From: Pagrus major
Lineage: Eukaryota > Chordata > Actinopteri > Spariformes > Sparidae
Assembly (NCBI RefSeq): GCF_040436345.1
Contig: NC_133219.1
Span: 20,239,458 to 20,303,457, forward strand
Direction: 5' to 3'
DNA: 64,000 nucleotides
In this document: one piece after another, positions 2,589 to 34,659 of the stretch
Position numbering within the stretch: the first letter of the stretch is position 1
Layout: each line of letters begins with the position of its first letter
Translations under genes and position numbers: made by a program
The notes under the pieces: generated by a model
Told to the model about the DNA's origin: nothing
The model's input: only the letters and a program-made list of their open reading frames with translations
The model's database searches: none

Positions 2589-3626
2589 GAAGACTGAAGC
2601 TCCAAAATCAAAATCCACCTACTGCCAGAGCAACATGGTTTTTCTTTTTATCTGCTTGCTGATCTGTGTTACGTTTAAGTATGTAAACAAAAACATTTTC
2701 CGAGAGTATATTTGCACAGAGGCCAACCAGTCATGACATGTAATGATGCAGAGTTTGTGTGCATTTATTTGACAATCCTAAAATGCTGCATTTCCAGAAA
2801 TGTAATTCAATCATGTGGAAGAAAGAAGTGACAATGGGCAAAATGAAATGCCAGATCATATGTATTACATTTCTTGCATGTTTATTACAATATAAAATGA
2901 CAATTACATGAGCAAGAGCAACGTTTGGTATATATCCTGCTTTTTGTTTTTACCATGAATTATGGTAATGGACCATGTAATTTGTTTTTCACAATGAAGA
3001 CTACCTCAGTCACCTCAAATCTGATCATCATTGTGCTGATTTAAAATTTACAGTAACGTGTAAAGAGCCTACCAGGAGCATCTGTGTTACTTCTGATATG
3101 AAGTGGACAGTATTTTCAAAATAAAAGTTGACTAACACACAGCAATGTGGTCACTGGTCATTATAATATACAGAGCCAAGGTTGCAGAGACAAAGAGAGG
3201 AAACTGCAGTTTGGGAGTTCAACCCAGTCAGATTTTAAGATATATAACTGAATGCTAAATGCATCTAAAGCCAGGGTTTTCATCAACACCAACACAGCAG
3301 GGCAGCACACACCCCACTTCACTGTCTCATATTTCTCTAAAACTTTGTGAAATGCTGAGTAGGTTTAGAATATTCAAATGATGAGGAGCCATAAGTGGAT
3401 GTTTCTTCATATTAAGGGATCACAAGCAACAAGGGACAGTGGCCTGATATAATGTGATATTGTATGCTTTAGCATTACAGTTTGACATTTCAGAAACTTT
3501 GCTTATTCGCTTTCTTACACAGAGTTAGATGACAGGATCTTTACCACTCTCATATCTGTCTGGTAAATGTGATTATAAAGACTACACAGCCAACAGTCGC
3601 GTTAGTGACATTGTCTCGTTGAATGG
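2589..3626 (+). other. nipsnap1 3' UTR and spacer
   Basis: This AT-rich sequence follows the nipsnap1 stop codon. The first canonical poly(A) signal is AATAAA at 3120-3125, which suggests a 3' UTR of roughly 550 nt. Nothing else is recognisable up to the transposon at 3627. Confidence 0.5.
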
Positions 3627-3725
3627 TACGGAAGCCCTAAAGGGCCATGCATTCATACATTTTATTTCCTCCGTTTTCCCGTGATAACGAGTTAATTTCA
3701 TTTGTTTTCTCGAGATCTCGAGTTA

Positions 3726-4130
3726 TTATCTCGAAATAACAACTGCCGTTTTCCCGAGATAACGGGATAATTTTCTTGAGATAACGAAACTTTGTTTTCC
3801 CGAGATAGATAACGATATAATTAATTCGAGATCTCGAGATAATGACTGTGATATGATAGGCCTGAGATTATGGAGACGCCCGGGACCTCGAAGCTGGTCA
3901 GCTATGTAGTTAATGATAATATCGGGCTCACTTAGATTGCGCCGCCGATATAGCTGAAGCCTTGCTAACCGTCTTTTTAGATTACGCACACTAATGTGTA
4001 TATTATCTGTAATAGCAAGGCATAATGCTATTTCAGCCTGTGTCAGGCCTTGATTGAAAAGATATGTGACGCGGTGATCGATATGCTCCTGCTCCTCTGA
4101 CATTGCTAAACTGAATGATGTTTCCTGCAA
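3726..4130 (-). pseudogene. Transposase N-terminal fragment, copy 1
   Basis: An open frame on the minus strand starts MQETSFSLAMSEEQEHIDH and contains FNQGLTQAEIALCLA and RNLKRRLARLQLYRR, which look like a helix-turn-helix DNA-binding region. After about residue 85 (GPGRLHN) the frame runs into the CTCGAGAT-rich repeat and encodes low-complexity SRDLE/SREN-type sequence, so the integrase catalytic core is missing. It is a truncated passenger of the surrounding transposon, not a host gene. Compared with copy 2 it has a two-codon insertion (AITDN against ADN). Confidence 0.7.
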
Positions 4131-4180
4131 TGATTTAATATACTACACTATAGTTTTGTTTTCTCAAGGTCTCGAATTAA

Positions 4181-4636
4181 TTATATCGTTATCTCGGAAA
4201 ACAAAGTTTCGTTATCTCGAGATCTCGAGAAAATTATCTTGAAATAACAACTGCCGTTTTCCCGAGATAACGGGATAATTTTCTCGAGATCTCGAGATAA
4301 CGAAACTTTGTTTTCCCGAGATAACGATCTAATTAATTCGAGATCTCGAGATAATGACTGTGATATGATAGGCCTGAGATTATGGAGACGCCCGGGACCT
4401 TGTAGCTGGTCAGCTATGTAGTTAATGACAATACTGGGCTCACTTAGATTGCGCCGCCGATATAGTTGAAGCCTTGCTAACCGTCTTTTTAGATTACGCA
4501 CACTAATGTGTATATTATCTGCAAGGCATAATGCTATTTCAGCCTGTGTCAGGCCTTGATTGAAAAGATATGTGACGCAGTGATCGATATGCTCCTGCTC
4601 CTCTGACATTGCTACACTGAATGATGTTTCCTGCAA
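4181..4636 (-). pseudogene. Transposase N-terminal fragment, copy 2
   Basis: This is a second copy, about 507 bp from the first, with the same start (MQETSFSVAMSEEQEH) and the same helix-turn-helix region, differing at only a few residues. It too loses similarity after GPGRLHN and reads through inverted-repeat DNA as SRENGS-type low complexity. The two copies are direct repeats, so an internal duplication, not two separate insertions, best explains them. Confidence 0.7.
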
Positions 4637-4905
4637 TGATTTAATATACTATACTATCATTTTGTTTTCTCAAGATCTCAAATTAATTATATCGTTATCT
4701 CGGAAAACAAAGTTTCGTTATCTCGAGATCTTGAGAAAATTATCTCGAAATAACAACTGCCGTTTTCCCGAGATAACGGGATAATTTTCTCGAGATCTCG
4801 AGATAACGACATAATTAATTCGAAATGAAATTAACTCGTTATCACAGGAAAATGGAGGAAATAAAATGTATGAATGCAAGGCCCTTTAGGGCTTCCGTAG
4901 AATGG

Positions 4906-21100: not shown

Positions 21101-23307
21101 CATCCAAAAATGTTTTTAATTCACAGATGGAAACTTACAAAACAGAACATCTGACATTTTCTCAATGTCAATCAATTCTCTATTTAAATCACTAACAACA
21201 AAACTCACAACAAAAAAAGTAATAAGCTTTTGAAACATTATGGAACTTCTTTCCCTGAAACCTCTGACTTTGTTTCTATTTGTGTTTATGTTGTTTCCCT
21301 GTTTTTGTTTTTATTATAAGGCTATATATTTAAAACATAAAATAAAAAGTCCAAAACCTACAAGGTTAATGCCACAAAGTGCTGTCCTATTCCTATTATA
21401 CCATTTTAGCCCCTTGCAGACTCTCTCACTTAAAGACTTACTAAGTGATGTCATCTTAGTCCCCAAGGGCTCAGGGCTTAAGGCCCTAGGGGGGACATTG
21501 GGATTGGGCCTAACTGATTGGCACTGCCATGATTCTACAGCATAGGTCACTAACAGGCGGACCGCAGTCCGAGTCCCAGACGCCGTCCTATACGGACCTG
21601 GACCTATAGTCAATTAATTACATAAATATTTAAAATTTTGACGGGCGCTTTTATTTTGACCGGTGCAGCTTTTCCAGACTTCCGGTACTGGTTTAGCAGA
21701 TCAGGAAATCCACTGACCAGTTGCATGCGAGTTAAGCCATCCCACATGATGCTGCTCAGCCAATCAAATCTGCATTCCAGGTGATAAACTTGGTGACTCT
21801 GAATACAGACAGATGAAAGAGGTGAGAAGCAAGTGACAGACAGCAAGACGAGTGAGCGATACAGGGAGAGAAGACAGAGAGAGATGAGTGAGCAATACAG
21901 GGAGAGAAGACAGAGAGAGACGAGCGAGCGATACAGGGAGAGAAGACAGAGAGACGAGTGAGCGATACAGGGAGAGAAGACAGAGAGACGAGTGAGCGAT
22001 ACAGGGAGAGAAGACAGAGAGACGAGTGAGCGATACAGGGAGAGAAGACAGAGAGACTAGTGAGCAAGACAGGGAGAGAAGACAGAGAGAGACGAGTGAG
22101 CGATACAGGGAGAGAAGACAGAGAGACTAGTGAGCAAGACAGGGAGAGAAGACAGAGAGAGACGAGTGAGCGATACAGGGAGAGAAGACAGAGAGACGAG
22201 TGAGCAATACAGGGAGAGAAGACAGAGAGAGACGAGTGAGCGATACAGGGAGAGAAGACAGAGAGACGAGTGAGCGATACAGGGAGAGAAGACAGAGAGA
22301 CGAGTGAGCGATACAGGGAGAGAAGACAGAGAGAGACGAGTGAGCGATACAGGGAGAGAAGACAGAGAGACGAGTGAGCCGGAGACAACAGAGAAAAATA
22401 ACTACACATGACGCTCTCTAAGAAGAGAAAAGTGGACAGCGAAAACAGAGCTTTCAACCCACAATGGACGGACTCATTCATGTTCATTCTTCCCCCTGGA
22501 AGCACAAAACCAGTCTGTCTCATATGTGCAAAGACCGTGGCACTCATAAAAAGTGTCAATGTGAAACGCACAAAGTTTTTGACCAAACATACCCACTCAA
22601 GTCTGAACTGAGGTCACGGAAAATAAGCAGTCTCAGAGCCCAATATGAACAATCCAGCCGGATCCTGACCCATTCATTCACTGCCCAACAGATGTGTTGA
22701 GATCTGTCTGTTGTAAAATTGGTTGAGACTGTTAAGATGTGAAACATTAACAAAGAAAAAGGGAAACTCAAGCTGCTGCTACACTTTATTTTATTATTAA
22801 AAAATGAAGTACTTTATTTTAAGATGCACAATTTTTAAAAAGCTATTTTATTTATTTTCACAATTTTATTTTTAAATGCAGCCCTTATTTTCCTTAAAGA
22901 GAGAAGAAATAATACATATCGACAGTATTATCTATCTGTATAATTAAATGTTAAGATACAGTAAATATTGTTGAAATGTTTTTGAATTCTTCTTTCTTTA
23001 TTTGATTTGACAGTCAGTTGTTGATTACATGCAGACGTTGATAAAACTGCAAGACTACTTCAATATATATCACACTAAATCATAACGCAGGTTAGACATT
23101 ATGATGTTTCCGGACCTTTGCTTTAGGAAATTTTCTCTAACTGGACCTATTTGAATTTTAGTTGAATAACCCTGCTCTACAGTAACAATATCTTTAAAAT
23201 GCTTGGTGCAAAGGAAAAAAAATTAGTCGATGTGTCTGTGGGTCTTGGAAAATACACCTTAGTAATTGTAATTGTGGGCAGCGTTAATGCTGCAAATGTG
23301 ATTTTAA

Positions 23308-28797: not shown

Positions 28798-31203
28798 ATG
28801 GATTGTAGACTTGGTGGACCTCTAGGCTACTATGGTAAATATCTTTATAATATTTTGTAGAACATTTAAATATGAATATGTACCTTAAATAATGACATGA
28901 TAAGATGTTGTTTTTATTTGCATTATGGGACAATCAAGTTTGTTCAGACATACATGTGCTGTGCTAAATATTTGGGACTGATTATATATACATATTTTAT
29001 GTTTTCTTGTAATTCATCCAGCATACTTTTGACACTGTGAATTAACTAGGACTGTACTACCGCTTAAACGGAAGCTACATCCTAAAAAGTAGTCAATGCT
29101 CGCAGTGATGTGAAAGGATTTAGTGAAACCAAACAAGCAATACTCACTACATGGGGCTATTAGAGGTATTGAAGTGATGATGCCCTTCCCTGTTTTATAT
29201 GCTTTATTTCAGGCATCAGTTCTCAATTCGATTTTTGGCTTAAAATGAACTTTTATCTGCTTCCCTAATTCGCCCATAAAAAAAACATCAGAAGAACCAA
29301 AATTATTTCTCACTAGTGTTCATGTAATCTTTCCCTAGCACTTGTCGCGATGCTCCTGGGAGTCCAGTGGAGGCCAGGGTTTTCTTTTCCGTCTACAACC
29401 AGCTGTGATGATGAGTTAAACAAGTCTACAGCTCTTACAAACACATTGGGACATGAAGCAAAAATGCTACTGGATGAATATGTAAGTACTACTAGGTATG
29501 ACACACAGTATTTCCTGTACAACTTGCATCATTTGTTGTAACCGTCCACAACACTCTCACGCCTCTGAGGACATTGTTCCTCCAAGTACAGCTTTGTAGC
29601 AGGTGAATGTGACCTAATGGGTTTTCTGTAACCCCATCGCTGATATGTTTGACACTGTAGGACCACATCACCAGCCCACCCACCTCCTTGATAGGGCTCT
29701 AAGATGTACAGCCAATCCACTGCTGAATCGGCAAATGTGGACATCCCTCTTTACAGATGCAAAGAGGTTTCCCCTCACATCTACCCACAGAGACAGTCAG
29801 TTTAAAGCTGCACTAAACTTTAATCCTTATGATTTCTGTACTAAATGACTGGCTGGGACCCCTGCATTGAGAAAGTGCAGTTTAATACGACAGGTAACAC
29901 TCTTTAAGCAGCTGCTCTGTCAGAAATAGGGGTGTGCGGGGCACCTCCTAATGTGAGGTTAAATGGAATGTGGCCTATTAAGTTAATTTCTCAGGGTCTA
30001 GTACAGTGTGCTTCTGGTCGGTTTACCACATTGCAAGCAGATGGCTTCCTGTTCCTAATTCTTGCCGTGTTTTTGTGCAGATCTATGGTGAGGACTGTTT
30101 TTACAAAGTCTGCTACGATACAGTACGGCCTGTACTCGATGTGAGATGATATCATATGCCCATTTCACACAGTGACAGAAGGAGCTGCACCAGCATCCTT
30201 TTCTTTTCCTCAACTCATAGTTTATATATGTTACTTAAACTTGTCCTTACTCACCACTGGTTTAGGTCACTGCACCTCCCGACAGAACATCGCGGTTGAA
30301 TTTCAGCCTGCACGAATGTTTAAGTTTTAGTGGCTGTCTCTTTAAGGCCCCCCTCCCGAAAAGCCCAGTCTGCTCTGATTGGTCAGCTCTCGCAGGCCAG
30401 AGCAGGTACCACCCACCATGTTTCCGCATCAACTGTGGCAGTGTTTTTGCAACCATGACTGTGCTTGGGGCATGGCATCAAGCCCTAACAGCTAATTTAA
30501 GGCACAGTTTCTGAATTAAGACTGTAGGAATTTCTCTGTGGATTATGATATTTTCAAAAAAAAAAATTAGATCTGCTTTATAAAAAAAAAAGACATCCAC
30601 ATGGAAGTCCCACTTTCTAAAATATGGGACCTTTATTGTTTCTTTTATTGTTATTGACACATAGCGCTCTATCTTACATTTGGCGCAAAGCGGCGCACAG
30701 CGTAGTGCATGTGTCATTGCAAGTTTGGGCTTCTACAAGGTTCACTCCACACTTATGAGGAATTCACTTATCTCTTACAGGAAAAATTTCATCACATCCA
30801 TAATTTACCGGTTCCAGATGATGTCCCTGATTCCACAATATCTGGTAACACCAACTCTGAGATGCTGCAGGACATCTACATCAAGGGTGTGCTTTTTCAC
30901 AAGCACATGTCAAAGGTAGAAGATTATCAGAGGGAACATTCTATCAAACACGAAACTGTCGTTGACCTCCTGTCAAAGGTCAAGCACAGACTCGGCCACC
31001 TTTCAACCAGAATGAAGATCCTTTTCACGACGATCGTCCCAGAAATCCCTTTGCCGGCAACGCCAGCCCCACCGAAGCTGTCCCACGATGATGACTATAC
31101 AAAAAAAGTATATGGATTGGGTGTCATACGCAGATTGGAGGAGTGGACTAGACAAGTGTTGCAGTTACTGAAGGCAGAGGAGGTCTGTAAGGTGCACCAT
31201 TAA
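28798..31203 (+). CDS. IL-6-family four-helix cytokine, M17/CNTF-like
   Basis: Three exons, 28798-28834, 29339-29481 and 30781-31203, join in phases 1 and 0 to 200 aa. Residues 1 to about 28 (MDCRLGGPLGYY, then ALVAMLLGVQW) form a signal peptide. The A-helix region follows TSCDDELNKST, which includes an N-glycosylation sequon. A proline-rich loop (PLPATPAPPK) precedes the D helix. The D helix KKVYGLGVIRRLEEWT closely resembles that of CNTF (KK-x-x-GL-x-V-x3-L-x2-WT), as I recall it. The exon-phase pattern equals that of the next gene and of LIF/OSM. Teleost 'M17', a LIF/CNTF relative reported beside GATSL3, is the likeliest name, but without alignment I leave the symbol empty. The product should be a secreted ligand for gp130/LIFR-type receptors. 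Confidence 0.85.
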
Positions 31204-33254: not shown

Positions 33255-34659
33255 ATGAAATACAGAGCAGGTACGGTATGCCATGGCACTCACTTTCCTC
33301 ATTCATTCCTTAATCAGTGTTTCACAAACTTTCAAATGTATGTGATGTGTTCAAAAACTGTGATTGTGCTTTTACAGGTTTTCTTGGAGTGCTGTGTGCC
33401 TGCATGATGATTCTGATGCAGAGCTCGGATGCAAGACATGTACCGAACAAACATTCTGCTGGAGTTTCATGCAGGGCAAGAAAGCTGACAGCCCTCACCG
33501 AAAGTCTAGTTAATGCCAGTCTGGAAAGTTTTGTAAGTAACATAATCCTGTGTGTCTTTAAAGTATATCTGAGGGAGGAGTAGTCTATGTCTTCATCACA
33601 GTGGTTTTCTGCCTCTAGTTTGAAGAGAAGAGAACATGAAGAGATTGTCTGTTTTGTGCAGGCAGCAGTGGAAAGGATATTTAGATATTTTGGAAAATCA
33701 AGCAGATGTTGCAGCAACACAATGTAAAAAATGTTTTACTTAAGCACAGAAATATTAGTAGTAGTAGTGACCCATTTCAGTCCTAAAATATGGAAGCAGC
33801 AGTTTAATGTTTTGTCAATCAAATTTTACCCACTACATGTTTTAGACTTTAGATCATTGAGAATCATTGCTATAGATTAAACTCTCCAAAGTTTTCAATT
33901 TGTAAAAATGCATCTCTTCAAGATCTATAAGGCTGTGATTTAGGAAAAAATTTAATTTGAAAAGTAACTAGTAACTATAGCTGTAAAGATAAATGTGGTA
34001 AAAGTAAGCAAATTAAGTAAAAGTACAATATTTTACTATATAATATAACAATTATATTGGATATGTCATGTGATGAAATGAAGTAATCTTCCAATTAAAG
34101 GTTCACTTTGTGTGAAAGTTGTTTTTTGAGTCTCAAAAATAATCTTGTTAAAAAGATTTAATTCAGTGCTGGTCTTCTCTTCCAGGACGAAGCCAATGGG
34201 AAGAACCTCGGCACTTGGGCCCCAGGATTCCCTGAGCTCGAGGTCAAACAGAACGATTCTTTGGATGAGTCAAAAGTTCAGTGCAGCTTCCTCTTCATGG
34301 TCCAAGGCCTGGAGAAAGTTCTGGAGGACCAAAAGAATAACTTGAATCCCTTAGATGTTTCGCTTCACAAGAAGCTCAGGGAAACCATCTCCAGGGTCAA
34401 AATGCTCGCAGCGTGTGTGAAAGAAACCCTCGGAGGGGAATGCTCCCCGACGCCACCCCCACCTAAAATGCCCAAGCCTGCATTTGACAGAAAGCAGTGG
34501 AGTCACACTCTGTTGAAGATAGCCAGGGACTATCTGTGCTGGCTGGAGCCTAAGCTCCCAGTCCAAATTTCTAAGGTCATAGGGAAAAACACAATGAAAC
34601 ATATAGTTAATGAGGCAAAACCTCAGGGCTATTTTGAGGGGAGTGGATACTTCTTGTAA
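33255..34659 (+). CDS. lif: LIF/OSM-like four-helix cytokine
   Basis: Exons 33255-33270, 33378-33532 and 34186-34659 give 214 aa, with intron phases 1 and 0 as in the upstream paralogue. Residues 1-25 (MKYRAGFLGVLCACMMILM) are a signal peptide. The mature part has five cysteines (VSCR, VQCS, AACV, GECS, LCWL) and sequons NAS and NDS. QKNNLNPLDVSLHKKLRET aligns with the C-helix region of mammalian LIF (DQKILNP, LSLHSKL), and a proline-rich C-D loop (SPTPPPPKMPK) precedes a D helix ending in LCWLEPKLP. The chromosomal position beside castor1 matches mammalian LIF and OSM. Whether it is named lif, osm or m17 in fish depends on phylogeny, so the symbol is provisional. Confidence 0.85.

Follow-up and report, generated by a model that had tools for sequence, protein, structure and literature searches.

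A 1273-bp element at positions 3627-4899 of a 64,000-nt stretch of the Pagrus major genome (the window) has the outside of a complete transposon and an inside that is repeated. It raises the question of what kind of mobile element this is, how its interior came to be duplicated, and whether the duplicated form serves the host or the family. In this study, we concluded, with a probability of about 0.77, that the element is an internally deleted derivative of the IS3EU type in which one unit was duplicated between arm repeats, that this multi-unit form was later moved or copied, and that it has no present role. The genome searched comprised 786 Mb in 25 contigs, and the locus of the element, designated L001, is on C5 (C5:20239458-20303457). 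Elsewhere in the window, we observed a minisatellite with periods of 34, 70 and 104 bp (21838-22379), two exon-like open frames (30706-31203, with a weak Pfam CNTF match at E 0.00035, below its cut-off; 34162-34659, with no Pfam match at E 0.01), and an F-box-like match among the frames.

The features of the element are collected in Table 1. It is bounded by perfect GAATGG duplications and its termini are TACGG..CCGTA. The sequence-only reading had described the outer structure as complete, with 77-bp terminal inverted repeats (TIRs) and a perfect target-site duplication (TSD). This was confirmed, as the ungapped terminal arms (3627-3703 and 4823-4899) were 77 nt long and 96% complementary, and the TSD was exact. 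Because the consensus TIRs are 220 bp long and the right arm is rearranged, these 77-nt arms represent only the in-register remainder. The inside had been read as two copies plus a partial third of a 507-bp unit. The direct repeats were real (289 nt at 97% identity with a spacing of 506; 206 nt at 96% with a spacing of 512), but the third unit was coreless, being a left-arm stretch within the right end. As had been proposed, arms carrying AGATAACGAAACTTTG faced one another, forming inverted pairs of 46 nt at 96% and 43 nt at 100%, and the arms were rich in a self-complementary word, with CTCGAGATCTCGAG found at 7 sites within the element (one mismatch or fewer). The two cores differed by 3.6%, with substitutions and the 6-bp deletion between them, and the fragment frame was open in both.

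Table 1. Coordinates in the window of the features of the IS3EU-type element
Feature	Positions	Strand	Remark
Left target-site duplication GAATGG	3621..3626	.	exact
Left terminal inverted repeat / arm	3627..3842	+	94% identical to consensus arm 1-220
Core copy 1	3843..4158	+	consensus core match 97%
N-terminal transposase fragment copy 1, 78 aa (MSEEQ...GRLH; start codon inferred)	3870..4103	-	frame extended into an integrase core in L082
Inter-core spacer (inner right arm + left arm)	4159..4354	.	one long hairpin predicted
Unit junction 1: right-arm GAGAAAATTATC joined to left-arm ..GAAATAACAACTG	4227..4253	+	
Core copy 2	4355..4664	+	95% vs consensus core; 6-bp in-frame deletion
N-terminal transposase fragment copy 2, 76 aa	4382..4609	-	
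Right terminal arm, rearranged, outer tip intact at end	4665..4899	-	80% to consensus arm
Unit junction 2, start of partial third unit	4733..4759	+	1 base differs from junction 1
Right target-site duplication GAATGG	4900..4905	.	exact

The element belongs to a large family. A DNA search of its own genome gave at least 216 matches, with the best 40 of 845 candidates scored and ranked against the two-core query. A tip word occurred 1355 times genome-wide (667 + 688 occurrences, two mismatches or fewer), and its reversed control 0 times. The consensus of 14 single-core copies was 756 bp with TIRs of 220 bp at 99% identity, and the 316 bp between these TIRs is defined here as the core. After six loci were dropped as duplicates of re-fetched ones, 40 loci held 41 elements, of which 38 were two-ended and 3 had one end missing. 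Exact 6-bp target duplications were present in 26 of the 38 two-ended copies, the element included. Within these 38 copies, a sample biased to core-rich copies because it was ranked against the two-core element, 18 were 743-757 bp long, 1 was shorter and 19 were longer. The sequence-only reading had left relatives to be counted by their internal units; two full direct cores were found in 3 of the 38 two-ended copies. Copies with more than one core therefore exist, and the possibility that all relatives are single-unit did not hold. Lengths were also taken from 24 tip pairs that were not chosen by core content, found among the first 100 of the 1355 tip matches (perfect tip words listed; C1-C3). 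They ranged from 518 to 1288 bp, with 9 below 738 bp, 5 at 738-770 bp and 10 above 770 bp. Thus, 756 bp is a common length but not a dominant one, and copies deviate from it in both directions. Short length, shared TIRs and TSDs, high copy number and the lack of a complete transposase are the features of a MITE or non-autonomous transposon. A length of 1288 bp was recorded at C2:17065247, and a 314-aa open frame was recorded at C11:30758259.

We then compared the element with IS3EU, the Repbase name of a superfamily. The available text on published families describes TA..TA ends and, usually, 6-bp duplications (PMC10045372), and that on fungal families describes termination in TAYGG..CCRTA (PMC12730594). 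The TACGG..CCGTA ends and the GAATGG duplication of the element agree with these features. The rve-like integrase core is absent from the element itself and was found in a relative. The genome was searched with the 79-aa fragment, the best 150 of 920 candidates were scored, and the 150 matches among those listed were 89-100% identical. In one of these, L082 (C9:689656-689889), the same N-terminal frame runs on into an integrase core (Pfam rva_4, E 1.6e-20, over the cut-off; rve, E 0.0004, below its cut-off), in support of the earlier claim that each unit carries an N-terminal transposase fragment. The right arm of L082 showed 98% identity. Full-length relatives with an integrase core had been expected; the core was recovered, but in a damaged, one-ended copy, whose frame stopped after NQRIESW and whose left TIR was not found within C9:684200-691400. 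A search with the integrase part of L082, in which all 130 candidates were scored, gave 74 matches. L082 was 100% identical and the next by E-value, L084, 54%. Two short fragments at C4:13748796-13748950 (83% over 24 aa and 67% over 27 aa) could be additional remnants of closely related copies. From the L082 comparison and this search, the short elements therefore look like deletion derivatives. In this one assembly, an intact same-family transposase flanked by both TIRs was not found, so that mobilisation of the short elements in trans is presumed. Among the matches listed (best 150 of 294), a number of integrase-core copies lay near contig ends, whereas the perfect tips listed on C1 and C2 lay well inside the chromosome. 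The ends, the 6-bp TSDs and the integrase core of L082 indicate, as far as sequence features define it, a non-autonomous DNA transposon of the IS3EU type. It differs from IS3EU in being non-autonomous, palindrome-armed and multi-unit, and no IS3EU family with comparable unit duplication was found in the literature text available to the search.

Two direct cores could also have arisen in other ways than by duplication of one unit, and a second multi-unit locus was informative in this regard. This locus, L002, is on the same contig at a distance of 0.5 Mb; it has its own exact target duplication, CCTCTA, and contains two full cores together with roughly half of a third core. No flank similarity between L001 and L002 was detected by blastn at E 0.01. 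The two elements were collinear and shared both junctions, L002 being longer in the spacer and in the third unit; its first spacer was about 113 bp longer than that of L001. The junction word (two mismatches or fewer) was present twice in L001 and twice in L002, and absent from the other 33 loci examined, which represent 29 distinct places. Genome-wide, with one mismatch or fewer, it had 5 matches (2 in L001, 2 in L002 and 1 in L081), and its reversed control had 0. Since the word is found mostly in L001 and L002, the multi-unit form was probably moved or copied as a whole; the fifth match, L081, is a single-core copy, and therefore the junction word can arise otherwise. In a core tree, in which 22 of 32 inner branches were weak and the bootstrap had not settled, the four cores of L001 and L002 formed one clade (support 96/90). 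They shared non-consensus bases, one of which was found in no other core. A common multi-unit ancestor of L001 and L002 is the simplest reading, and the sharing may stem from transposition or from interlocus gene conversion.

These data bear on two alternatives. Assemblers can mishandle palindromic and repetitive regions, and the region of the element is both, so that a false tandem duplication had to be considered, as the sequence-only reading had pointed out. However, the TSD is an exact 6 bp, the cores differ by substitutions and a 6-bp deletion, and L002 carries the same junctions. Misassembly is therefore very unlikely, on evidence from the assembly rather than from raw reads, and we rejected it. 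The second alternative is the fusion of two neighbouring insertions with loss of their facing tips. Neighbouring insertions do occur, as two complete copies separated by about 100 bp are present in L033, and the two 3.6%-divergent cores of the element were not nearest to each other in the tree. However, the clade and the shared non-consensus bases described above, together with two junctions that differ by one base and sit at homologous words, argue against fusion, to which we give a small chance.

Duplication of one unit is the preferred reading, and the arms suggest how it may have occurred. The consensus carries TCTCGAGATCTCGAGA twice in direct orientation (148 and 594) and CTCGAGATCTCGAG four times (83, 149, 595 and 661). 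A 16-nt word was common to the consensus arm and its own reverse complement, a length reached by 8 of 1000 dinucleotide shuffles. Left and right arms share direct repeats because they carry palindromes such as CTCGAGATCTCGAG; a palindrome is identical on both strands, and therefore the inverted arms contain direct repeats about 512 bp apart. The unit junctions adjoin the shared palindrome words. In blastn, one stretch of the element matched the consensus up to about position 612 and another matched it from 75 onwards, the two overlapping at the shared words. The switch was from right-arm CTCGAGATCTCGAGAAAATTATC to left-arm TCGAAATAACAACTG, with one base different at the first junction. We infer that the junctions fit unequal exchange or template switching between the words at 83 and 595, with the exact switch in the neighbouring ATTATC. 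Arms within an element were no more alike than arms between elements (permutation p 0.74, 18 copies), and frequent arm-to-arm exchange or conversion was not seen in these copies.

The IS3EU-like relative L084 (C1:38263400-38264400; upstream of C1:38262930-38263403) gave an indication of what the arm words may be. It begins with the tip TACGGAGCCCCTAAAGGGACATG, directly behind which stand three perfect palindromes around GCGAGATCTCGC that are 14, 20 and 20 nt long. The core CGAGATCTCG is common to the L084 palindromes and the arms of the element family. Because L084 carries the CGAGATCTCG palindrome three times behind its tip, we infer that the iterated arm motifs and self-complementary words such as CTCGAGATCTCGAG are putative transposase-binding sites. 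In short pieces of six relatives (L084-L089), a TACGG tip was present in three (L084, L088 and L089), and palindromes of at least 14 nt were present only in L084. L088 and L089 each had one unrelated 10-nt palindrome, and other iterated subterminal words were noted by eye. Neither tip nor palindrome was found in the short pieces sampled from L085-L087, which may miss the ends.

From these observations, the following course of events is proposed. Comparison with L082 shows that the short form has retained its ends and about the first 78 transposase codons, and that the catalytic part is missing. Such copies would have been mobilised in trans by an IS3EU transposase making 6-bp staggers. The core-plus-arm unit may then have doubled through unequal exchange or replication template switching between direct repeats. 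A further copy whose core was lost probably left the partial third unit; in L002, about half of the third core is still present. The multi-unit form would then have been mobilised, or gene-converted, to the second site.

Other copies were also rearranged. L032 has two direct cores without the L001/L002 junction. L031 883-4351 (C10:14154500-14159800) is 3469 bp long with one core, about 50 copies of a 54-bp arm repeat and an exact 6-bp target duplication. L064 1755-2967 (C1, around 24751206) has a 407-bp unit in three copies that are 98% identical; the array is satellite-like and built from the element end, with core pieces and right tips recurring. Arm expansions were present in L003, L006, L009, L013, L031 and others. 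L053 684-2012 (C2, around 22453948) is 1329 bp long and contains a full core and, in the opposite orientation, a core of 265 bp; its flanking hexamers, GTATGG and GTGTGG, differ. It is possible, though we regard it as doubtful, that the palindromic binding words are built-in duplication sites from which multi-core elements, as well as the 54-bp and 407-bp satellite-like arrays, arise repeatedly in this one family, with the grown forms still able to transpose.

The sequence-only reading had suggested that multiple copies of the N-terminal part could act as a repressor of, or a sink for, the parental transposase. Truncated transposases are known as repressors for other elements, and the element might be kept because its cores make this part or its arms titrate the enzyme. 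The frame was open in 25 of 35 cores, as well as in both cores of the element, and the arms hold many repeated words; the 25 come from a word-based test that needs words at both ends of the fragment, and missense in an end word therefore counts as not intact. The 35 cores exclude four loci that were duplicates, as well as core matches shorter than about 300 bp. However, distinct transitions against the majority in the 78-aa fragment used 42 of 153 possible non-synonymous and 19 of 81 possible synonymous changes, and distinct transversions 30 of 381 and 8 of 87, with 1 stop. Changes across the 35 cores thus appear close to neutral, and the fragment seems to be without clear constraint. Among the 218 substitutions in 14 copies, 105 were CpG transitions, at 94 of the 756 bases of the consensus, a pattern expected of methylated, decaying copies. 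That just 3 of 38 copies have two full direct cores, and that no intact same-family transposase was found, also speaks against a repressor or sink. Pfam returned nothing for the 78-aa piece and named no DNA-binding domain in it; DNA binding by the fragment is putative. The closest matches were rejected: DUF6115 in Pfam (E 0.068, below the cut-off), the AraC-like regulator QhpR in NCBIfam (E 0.055 and 12.6 bits, where the cut-off is 250), a weak match that would lean towards a repressor, and a phycobilisome protein in the PDB (best E 0.0015, only 27 residues). We consider a repressor or sink improbable.

The facing arms had also been suggested as a source of hairpin RNA, in which read-through transcripts would form hairpins through the arms and supply small RNAs that silence the family. 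The inter-core spacer folded far better than shuffles (z = -20, DNA parameters), and the consensus TIRs are long. However, any inverted-repeat element folds in this way, and the multi-unit form is not needed for hairpin RNA because single-core copies with the same TIRs are commoner. We therefore think this role unlikely as well. The positive evidence for a repressor, sink or hairpin-RNA role is the open fragment and the foldable spacer, nothing further, and these roles are unsupported. Most likely, the element has no present role.

Comparable growth has been described in Drosophila. In the available text on Galileo, subfamily F of D. mojavensis has long TIRs, internal tandem repeats and large copy-length variation, and non-autonomous two-TIR derivatives occur whose repeats were proposed as secondary transposase sites (PMC3573991). 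The element shares long TIRs with internal repeats, length variation, non-autonomous two-TIR forms and putative transposase-site repeats with it. In contrast, Galileo is of the P superfamily with 7-bp duplications, and it expands repeats of about 210 bp inside the TIR (PMC3573991), whereas the element duplicates a core-plus-arm unit. Membership in Galileo or P was rejected from the 6-bp TSDs and the integrase-type core of L082. Tetris of D. virilis, according to the available text, is a non-autonomous foldback-type element in which the repeats of the TIR expand and give rise to satellite arrays (PMC4079207), an expansion comparable to that of L031 and L064. It differs in its 8-10 bp TSDs, repeats of about 220 bp and a middle domain without apparent protein-coding capacity (PMC4079207). 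The foldback-type feature was present in the family, as its 220-bp TIRs have internal repeats whose number varies between copies. In the literature text available, no case of tandem duplication or of arrays within MITEs resembled the element more closely than Galileo and Tetris. The behaviour of the element is of the same kind as that of Galileo and Tetris, in a different superfamily and with a core-plus-arm unit duplicated rather than an arm repeat alone.

No new regulatory system is revealed by this element. It is apparently an unusual-looking but ordinary case of mobile-element decay, in which palindrome-rich arms let the inside duplicate. If true, this IS3EU case would join the pattern described for Drosophila foldback elements. 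It would also show, at the level of sequence, how a cut-and-paste transposon can give rise to tandem repeats in a vertebrate, with presumed binding-site palindromes doubling as recombination sites.
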